A DNA stretch of 64,000 nucleotides. Source: Plantactinospora endophytica (lineage in GTDB: Bacteria > Actinomycetota > Actinomycetes > Mycobacteriales > Micromonosporaceae). The stretch lies in assembly GCF_016862915.1 (NCBI RefSeq), contig NZ_BONW01000002.1:434001-498000 (forward strand), read 5' to 3'. This document shows, one piece after another, positions 7,689 through 9,972 of this stretch (its first letter is position 1; each line of letters opens with the position of its first letter). A program made the position numbers and the translations under genes. Under the pieces are notes generated by a model. It was given only the letters and a program-made list of their open reading frames with translations, made no database searches and was not told the DNA's origin.

Positions 7689-7944
7689 CCGCCTGGTCCG
7701 GACCTCGGCGGGCCGGGTGGCGTGAGCCTTGCCCGAGGAGTCCGTGGGGGCGGCCGGGCGGGTCGGTGAACCGGGGACGGCGAAAATCCGTAATCCGCTG
7801 GCAGTGGCCCGGTCTCCTGATCGGGGCGACCGAACCACGTATCGCGCTCGACGAGCGACCGGCGTCCCGGTTGCCCGCCGTGGGCACGTCGACCGATGGA
7901 GGGTGCCCGCCGTGCGGAACGTCGACCGATGGGAGGAAGGCAGC

Positions 7945-9972
7945 ATGTCCGGAGCCGGCCGGGGTGGACCCGACACCGGAACCGTCGTCGCGGCCCGCGC
8001 GGGTGACCCGCGGGCCCTCGACGCGCTGGTGGCCAACTCGCTGCCGCTGGTCTACAACATCGTCGGCCGGGCGCTGCACGGGCACGCCGACACCGACGAC
8101 GTGGTCCAGGAGACCCTGCTCCGGATGGTCCGGCACCTGGCCGGGCTGCGGGAGCCGGCGGCCTTCCGGTCCTGGCTGGTGGCGATCGCGGTACGCCAGG
8201 TCCGGGACTGGCAGCAGCACACGGCCACGCTCCGGGCCCCGGATGCCGGCCCGGACGAGGTAGCCGATCCGGCGGCGGACTTCGCCGAGCTGACCGTCGT
8301 CCGGTTGGGGTTGACCGACCAGCGCCGGGAGGTTGCCGAGGCGACCCGCTGGCTCGACCCGGACGACCGGGAGCTGCTCGCCCTCTGGTGGCTGGAGGAG
8401 ACCGGCGAACTGGACCGCGCCGACCTCGCGGGGGCGCTCGGCCTGCCCGGTGGACATGCCGCCGTCCGGGTACACCGGATGAAGGAGCAGCTCGACGTCG
8501 CCCGTACCGTCGTCCGGGCGCTCCGGGCCCGACCCGGCTGCCCCGACCTGCACGCCGTCGCCCAGGGCTGGACGGGTCAGCCCAGCCCGCTGTGGCGCAA
8601 GCGGCTCGCCCGGCACGTCCGGGACTGTGCCCGGTGCGCGCCGCAGTACGGCGACCTGCTGCCGGTCGACCGGCTGCTCGCCGGACTTCCGCTGCTGCCC
8701 GTACCGCCCGGACTCGGCGAGTACGTCGGTGCGGCCGGCGGCACCCTCGCCGGTTCCGCCACACCGGCCGCCGCGCCGTTCGCCCCACCCGTCACCTCGC
8801 CGTTCACCTCGCCTGGTGCCGTCGCTGCGTCGGGCCCGAGCGGTGCAGTCGGGCCGACGGACCCGAGCGGTGCTGTCGGCACCGGCCCGACGGCTCCGGC
8901 CCGTGCCGGGGCGACGCCTGTCCGGGCCGGTGCGCCGGGGCGGGGAGCGGGGCGGCGACCGGCGGTCGGGGTACGCCGAGTCGTCGGGCCGGTCTCGGTC
9001 GCGGCGGCGGTCGCCGGGCTCGTGGTGGCGGTCCTGGTGGCGGTGCAGGTGACCAAACCGTCCACTCCGGACGTCGCCGCTGCCGACTTCGCCGGGGCGC
9101 CGACCGCCGGGGCCGGCAGCACGGCCGCCACTCCCACGCCGACCGTCACCGGGATCACCCCCACCCCACGCCGGGCCACCCCGACACCGAAGCCCCGGAC
9201 GTCGACCCGGCCGGCCGCAGCGGCGGGACCGGCCCGGACCTCCGACAAGAAGGGCGTGGCGGTCTGGAACTTCTCCGGGGTCAGCCAGGCGCTGGCGAAC
9301 TCCAAGGCGAGCTGGTACTACACCTGGGCCACCCACCACGACGGGATCAGCACGCCGCGCGGTGCCGAGTTCGTGCCGATGATCTGGGGTCGGGACAACG
9401 TCGACAGCGCCAGCCTGGCCAAGGCGAAGGCGGCCGGACCCTACCTGCTCGGGTTCAACGAGCCGGATCTGGCCGGGCAGGCGGAGATGAGCGTGGACGA
9501 GGCGCTCACGCTCTGGCCGAAATTGCAGTCCACCGGCGCCACCCTGGGCAGCCCGGCGGTCGCCTTCGGCGGGGCCACGCCCGGCGGCTGGCTCGACCGG
9601 TTCATGTCCGGCGCGAAGTCGCGCGGCTACCGGGTCGACTTCATCGCCCTGCACTGGTACGGCGGAGACTTCGTCACCGCCAACGCGGTGAACCAGCTCA
9701 AGCAGTACCTCCAGGCGGTGTACCAGCGTTACAAGCTGCCGATCTGGCTCACCGAGTTCGCCCTGATCGACTTCTCCAACGGCACCCGGTTCCCGAGCGA
9801 ACAGCAGCAGGCCGCCTTCCTCACCGCCGCCACCAAGATGCTCGGCGGGCTCTCCTTCCTGCACCGGTACGCCTGGTTCGGGCTGCCCGCCACCGACAAG
9901 GACCGGACCGGGCTGTTCCGCAGCGGCAGCCAGCCGACAGCGGTGGGCCGGGCGTTCCAGGCGGCGGGCTGA
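7945..9972 (+). CDS. ECF sigma factor fused to a membrane-anchored extracellular GH128-like domain
   Basis: The 675-residue protein reads as a one-component signalling chain. Residues about 10-75 are an ECF sigma-2 region (ADTDDVVQETLLRMVRHL) and about 130-190 a sigma-4 region. A short anti-sigma-like zinc motif, HVRDCARC, lies at about 223-230. A Pro/Ala/Gly linker, one transmembrane helix (about 345-369) and a Thr/Pro-rich spacer follow. A C-terminal Asl1/GH128-type glycosidase fold occupies about 432-675, with the acid/base Glu in GFNEPD (about 506) and the nucleophile Glu in WLTEFAL (about 604). Topology predicts sigma inside and glycosidase outside, so glycan binding could control sigma release. 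ECF proteins with such C-terminal sensory extensions are known in actinobacteria. Start 7945 has a strong GGGAGGAAGG site. No separate anti-sigma gene is adjacent. Confidence 0.9.
   Translation: MSGAGRGGPDTGTVVAARAGDPRALDALVANSLPLVYNIVGRALHGHADTDDVVQETLLRMVRHLAGLREPAAFRSWLVAIAVRQVRDWQQHTATLRAPDAGPDEVADPAADFAELTVVRLGLTDQRREVAEATRWLDPDDRELLALWWLEETGELDRADLAGALGLPGGHAAVRVHRMKEQLDVARTVVRALRARPGCPDLHAVAQGWTGQPSPLWRKRLARHVRDCARCAPQYGDLLPVDRLLAGLPLLPVPPGLGEYVGAAGGTLAGSATPAAAPFAPPVTSPFTSPGAVAASGPSGAVGPTDPSGAVGTGPTAPARAGATPVRAGAPGRGAGRRPAVGVRRVVGPVSVAAAVAGLVVAVLVAVQVTKPSTPDVAAADFAGAPTAGAGSTAATPTPTVTGITPTPRRATPTPKPRTSTRPAAAAGPARTSDKKGVAVWNFSGVSQALANSKASWYYTWATHHDGISTPRGAEFVPMIWGRDNVDSASLAKAKAAGPYLLGFNEPDLAGQAEMSVDEALTLWPKLQSTGATLGSPAVAFGGATPGGWLDRFMSGAKSRGYRVDFIALHWYGGDFVTANAVNQLKQYLQAVYQRYKLPIWLTEFALIDFSNGTRFPSEQQQAAFLTAATKMLGGLSFLHRYAWFGLPATDKDRTGLFRSGSQPTAVGRAFQAAG

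Follow-up and report, generated by a model that had tools for sequence, protein, structure and literature searches.

Can a single bacterial protein recognise a glycan outside the cell, cut it and answer with a change in transcription? The question is raised by a gene in the window (the whole analysed stretch of 64,000 nucleotides, from contig NZ_BONW01000002.1 of Plantactinospora endophytica), for which the original prediction described a one-component ECF sigma factor carrying its own membrane anchor and an extracellular glycosidase. We consider it fairly probable that the product is a one-protein signalling system of the ECF52/ECF53 type for beta-1,3-glucan, with proteolytic release of the sigma factor and an output through promoters that share a motif.

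Structure and conservation of the fused gene

The reading frame is uninterrupted and its ATG is preceded by a good ribosome-binding site. Its neighbours, both assigned by eye, are a gene for an M55-type peptidase upstream and one for a MerR-type regulator downstream. The gene and its parts are as follows:

7931..7939, + strand: ribosome-binding site GGGAGGAAG (sequence reading)
7945..9972, + strand: sigma-GH128 fusion gene, 675 amino acids plus stop (open reading frame; 60 full-length orthologues)
8026..8211, + strand: sigma region 2, residues 28-89 (Pfam PF04542, E 2e-11; helices, pLDDT about 90)
8317..8526, + strand: sigma region 4, about residues 125-194 (within the TIGR02937 span 24-184; helices 125-194)
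8539..8637, + strand: anti-sigma-like zinc segment C199...H224xxxC228xxC231 (four ligands invariant in 60/60 orthologues)
8989..9045, + strand: single transmembrane helix, residues 349-367, N-terminus inside (hydropathy 2.59)
9046..9246, + strand: Pro/Thr-rich extracytoplasmic linker, residues 368-434 (pLDDT below 50; poorly conserved)
9247..9969, + strand: GH128 endo-beta-1,3-glucanase-type domain, residues 435-675 (PF11790, E 5e-50; 64% identity to PDB 6uaq_A)
9460..9462, + strand: E506 in NEPD, catalytic acid/base (kept in 60/60 fused and 12/12 other GH128 frames)
9754..9756, + strand: E604 in LTEF, catalytic nucleophile (kept in 60/60 fused and 12/12 other GH128 frames)

The ECF sigma regions 2 and 4 are recognised above cut-off by both PF04542 and TIGR02937 (the latter with E 4e-16). 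The HxxxCxxC motif (H224, C228 and C231) is joined by a fourth invariant cysteine, C199, located 25 residues upstream, and these four presumed zinc ligands are kept in every one of the 60 orthologues. The anti-sigma-like motif of the original prediction is thus present and strictly conserved, while taken alone it falls below Pfam thresholds, and no zf-HC2 match was found in the protein; its assignment as a putative anti-sigma segment is based on the invariance of the ligands, together with a helical stretch predicted by AlphaFold2.

The expected single membrane helix was located by hydropathy at about residues 349-367. One such helix is predicted in 58 of the 60 orthologues and two in the remaining pair, and the sigma side of the helix is the more positively charged in 52/60. 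In the AlphaFold2 model (mean pLDDT 69, pTM 0.43, a confidence at which the relative placement of the sigma and anti-sigma parts is not readable) the sigma domains are confident and the linker between them and the glycosidase-type domain is disordered; the structure prediction that had been proposed as a check on this latter domain gave a largely confident fold. The architecture and topology, like the invariant zinc and catalytic residues and the shared promoter motif considered below, are read from the sequences themselves.

Our orthologue scan, with one genome per species, retrieved 76 loci, in which 60 fusions are whole and in frame. About 60 actinobacterial species, from the Micromonosporaceae, Streptosporangiaceae and Streptomycetaceae, carry the fusion, always with the same order of parts. 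The mean identity of the orthologues is about 71% in the sigma part and 69% in the GH part, and therefore both halves are similarly constrained. An early division into sigma-only and GH-only loci was discarded as an effect of BLAST reporting, as most loci have both parts.

A sequencing or annotation artefact that fused two separate genes would account for the unusual protein, and broken frames in a GC-rich stretch of three orthologues could be cited in its favour. The 60 uninterrupted copies, however, come from independent assemblies, complete chromosomes among them; they rule out a gene-joining or frameshift artefact, whose probability we place close to nil. The claim of a single 675-residue chain with sigma-2 and sigma-4 regions, anti-sigma-like motif, transmembrane helix and GH128 domain thus stands, and the frameshift that might have overturned it was not found in this frame or in the 60 full-length orthologues. 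In the three exceptions (L018, L063 and L076) the reading frame is interrupted after the sigma part and before the GH part; these copies are either genuine pseudogenes or the result of misassembly in the GC-rich stretch. Another variant, in a metagenome-assembled genome assigned to Frankia (L045), has two fused sigma-GH128 genes in tandem.

The genome containing the window also encodes a paralogous fused sigma factor of the same plan (L135, C28:64262-65005 region), in which an AbfB domain replaces GH128. The outside domains joined to this sigma core therefore appear to be interchangeable.

The GH128 domain: enzyme, sensor or both

The GH128/Glyco_hydro_cc profile matches residues 450-671 (E 5e-50), and the 64% identity extends over 238 residues of 6uaq_A, which we take to be AmGH128_I, a subgroup-I endo-beta-1,3-glucanase of Amycolatopsis. 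E506 aligns with E96 of this structure and E604 with E193. The same catalytic pair is present in subgroup-II GH128, as reported in a study that refers to AmGH128_I as subgroup I (PMC10956234). The predicted GH128 fold is supported by the identity to a solved structure together with the model confidence. A GH128-type domain retaining both catalytic glutamates had been foreseen, and this is confirmed; the loss of either residue in orthologues, which would have weakened the claim, was not observed in any of the 60. The domain probably functions as an enzyme in addition to sensing.

Intact glutamates do not by themselves prove enzymatic work, because RsgI6-GH10 of Clostridium thermocellum, the closest studied parallel, has very low hydrolytic activity (PMC4711584). 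According to one alternative the GH128 domain would likewise be a binding-only sensor, whose catalysis is weak or irrelevant. RsgI6-GH10 does bind its polysaccharide, and binding domains without catalytic function are found in sister sigma factors (the AbfB paralogue, and SCO4117; PMC5826349). Against this, both glutamates are invariant in 60/60 orthologues from three families, the domain is 64% identical to a solved enzyme, and GH128 is kept in a natural deletion without the sigma part, where sensing through this sigma factor is impossible. We regard the binding-only alternative as quite improbable.

This natural deletion was encountered in a survey of the genus, in which a GH128 domain was present in 3 of 7 genomes. 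The sister species G032, represented by a single-contig chromosome, has a 390-residue frame (L152, minus strand) from which the sigma and anti-sigma parts have been lost in frame: a similar leader (MSGTGHSGADTG) is followed by the transmembrane helix, the linker and GH128, with NEPD and LTEF intact. Remnants of the promoter are kept together with the ribosome-binding site, with a -10 element GTCTGC instead of GTCTCC. Nothing else in G032 closely resembles this sigma core; the one paralogue found there shows 56% identity. Between the window and G032 the omega value of the GH domain is 0.23, similar to that between intact copies. Retention of GH128 in G032 therefore counts against a purely sensory, non-enzymatic domain and suggests that the anchored enzyme is useful alone; this evidence is suggestive and not proof, because the loss of the sigma part may be recent.

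These observations bear on a different explanation, in which enzymatic activity is the main role of the outside domain, and the sigma factor provides feedback on the amount of anchored glucanase through envelope stress or proteolytic turnover, without specific glucan sensing. Such a role would agree with the invariant glutamates and with G032, where promoter remnants, ribosome-binding site, membrane helix and a GH128 domain with its glutamates have outlived the sigma and anti-sigma parts at an omega of 0.23. The AbfB binding domain that occupies the same position in the same-genome paralogue, in contrast, fits a sensor role. The genes that share the promoter motif also bear on this explanation.

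Promoter motif and predicted regulon

A predicted autoregulatory promoter lies upstream of the gene:

7783..7817, + strand: AAAATCC-GTAATCC, 15-base spacer, GTCTCC (motif upstream of 53/61 sigma-GH128 genes)
7790-7796, + strand: -35 element GTAATCC, part of the predicted promoter
7812-7817, + strand: -10 element GTCTCC, part of the predicted promoter

The general form, (A/T-rich)GTWRTCC-N15/16-GTCTCC, precedes 53 of 61 fusion genes at 29-127 bases before the start, while in 12,200 shuffled upstream regions it occurred 10 times. Searching 20 orthologue-holding genomes for a close form of the motif gave 35 sites, versus 1 for a backwards control pattern, and most of the sites in these genomes that do not belong to sigma genes are found a short distance before genes for secreted glycan-active proteins.

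In many cases a sigma gene is accompanied by another copy of the motif in divergent orientation. The gene read divergently from the sigma gene in Streptomyces, Planotetraspora and Streptacidiphilus encodes a member of the thaumatin family (Pfam E 2e-50), with osmotin and the thaumatin-like proteins of plants among its relatives; in Streptosporangiaceae it encodes a secreted F5/8C protein that also contains GH128 or DUF1996. Elsewhere in the genomes of these relatives the motif precedes further F5/8C-DUF1996 genes (L117, L118, L124, L127 and L130), F5/8C-GH128 genes (L123, L125 and L129) and another thaumatin-like gene (L132). Two sites have no obvious link to beta-glucan (an alginate-lyase-like gene, L116, and a beta-helix-like gene identified by eye, L120), and four others (L119, L126, L128 and L131), at which no convincing matching gene was found, were not counted as support. 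In our tree the secreted GH128s adjoin fused GH128s from their own bacterial family; in Streptosporangiaceae the two are sisters, and the sensor domain and the secreted enzyme are therefore paralogues there. The F5/8C-DUF1996 proteins of several Streptosporangiaceae, through the shared motif, link DUF1996, for which we know of no activity, to a glucan-type regulon.

The motif is also found before two paralogous fused sigma genes of Streptomyces (L121 and L122), which encode an unidentified C-terminal domain and have a closely similar promoter (AAAGTGTTATCCC...GTCTCC). Cross-regulation between these paralogues and sigma-GH128 is therefore possible.

Beta-1,3-glucan, the principal glucan of the fungal cell wall, is indicated by the GH128 and the thaumatin-like families alike. 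The co-target genes of the relatives thus point to beta-1,3-glucan as the signal, whose source, in our view, is probably the fungal wall. A beta-glucan or similar glycan had been suggested as the ligand, and the more specific beta-1,3-glucan is supported by the nearest solved enzyme as well as by the genes sharing the promoter motif.

In the genome containing the window the situation is simpler. In its 9.68 Mb no site other than the promoter at 7783..7817 comes within 2 mismatches of the motif, the fusion itself contains the only GH128 domain, and the whole-genome motif search found no targets beyond the fusion gene. Matches to the core motif at L077 and L079-L082 were rejected as chance occurrences, since they fall within other genes or straddle them and have no A/T-rich block. 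A single strong site and the absence of another GH128 would suit an enzyme with mere feedback control, but the motif before separate secreted glucan-active genes in other genomes suggests signalling that reaches beyond the gene itself, and we judge the feedback explanation unlikely. We also give a low probability to a narrower form of the glucan-sensing model, in which the system has become, within this genus, a one-gene glycan circuit: its own promoter would be the sole strong target and its own surface glucanase the output, so that glucan would raise the level of the enzyme by which it is detected and cut, and loss of the sigma half could leave a mere anchored enzyme, as in G032.

Proposed mechanism and relation to known systems

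Returning to the signalling system that we favour, we infer its ligand, its proteolytic release and the use of the motif promoter by this sigma factor. At rest, the sigma domains would be held at the membrane, masked in cis by the zinc anti-sigma segment next to them. Outside, on its flexible linker, the GH128 domain would bind, and probably cut, beta-1,3-glucan such as that of fungal or oomycete walls. Binding would then trigger proteolysis near the membrane; cleavage within the membrane and breakdown of the anti-sigma segment would follow and free the sigma factor. Genes of the site-2-protease family are present in the genome, a weak support for this step because they also occur in all 14 control genomes (14/14). 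The freed sigma factor would read the GTWRTCC-N15/16-GTCTCC promoter of its own gene; its targets in relatives would include the secreted GH128, thaumatin-like and F5/8C-DUF1996 genes as well. In the genome studied here, where no strong target other than the gene itself was found, the system would chiefly yield additional anchored enzyme-sensor.

Antibiotic-producing actinobacteria commonly encode fused ECF sigma factors of this type. The conserved motif and its co-targets (GH128, thaumatin-like and F5/8C-DUF1996 genes) make the sensing of fungal beta-1,3-glucan specifically and cheaply testable. If correct, the model would show how soil actinobacteria could recognise fungi, and would offer a single-gene tool for glucan-responsive expression.

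The fused architecture itself is already published (ECF52/ECF53; PMC8999054, PMC10766802). In the literature searched, with most subscription papers outside that search, we found neither the promoter motif nor the regulon of the GH128 type, and no report of a ligand for any glycosidase-bearing fused ECF sigma factor. The new element therefore appears to be the predicted regulon of a GH128-type fused sigma factor, with its likely signal and target genes.

Proteins of groups ECF48, ECF52 and ECF53 join a sigma factor to a zinc anti-sigma domain and a transmembrane segment, and their proteolytic activation is expected (PMC8999054); glycosyl hydrolase domains have been predicted in some ECF52/53 proteins, none of them experimentally validated (PMC10766802). 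The features of ECF52/ECF53 are all found here: sigma regions 2 and 4, a zinc anti-sigma segment in the C-terminal extension, one or two transmembrane helices after it, and a Pro-rich outside region with a carbohydrate-related C-terminal domain (residues 368-434 and 435-675). Predicted proteolytic activation and autoregulation are shared as well (PMC8999054, PMC10766802, PMC5826349). We therefore class the protein as ECF52/ECF53-type by architecture. The studied ECF52 member SCO4117, whose truncated form behaves as partly active and autoregulating (PMC5826349), has a carbohydrate-binding module in place of a GH128 domain with an intact catalytic pair, and its proposed motif is CSGYN-17bp-SRHA, as opposed to GTWRTCC-N15/16-GTCTCC. 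AmGH128_I-type enzymes (6uaq) share the Glu pair and 64% of catalytic-domain residues, whereas the domain described here is tethered through the membrane to a sigma factor. IutY of Pseudomonas putida (ECF243) likewise unites sigma and anti-sigma functions in one membrane protein subject to proteolytic release (PMC8999054), but responds to a siderophore within a cell-surface signalling system and contains no glycosidase.

The SigI/RsgI pairs of Clostridium thermocellum, especially that with RsgI6-GH10, resemble the proposed system in having an extracellular sensor of a glycoside hydrolase family, a transmembrane segment, intramembrane proteolysis, autoregulation and matching hydrolases as targets (PMC4711584, PMC12203970). 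They differ in consisting of two proteins, with a nearly inactive GH10 domain, a SigI that is not an ECF sigma factor and an RsgI_N that is not a zinc anti-sigma domain. The protein encoded in the window, a single polypeptide with an ECF sigma factor and an HxxxCxxC motif, would thus work like the SigI/RsgI systems without being a member of them.
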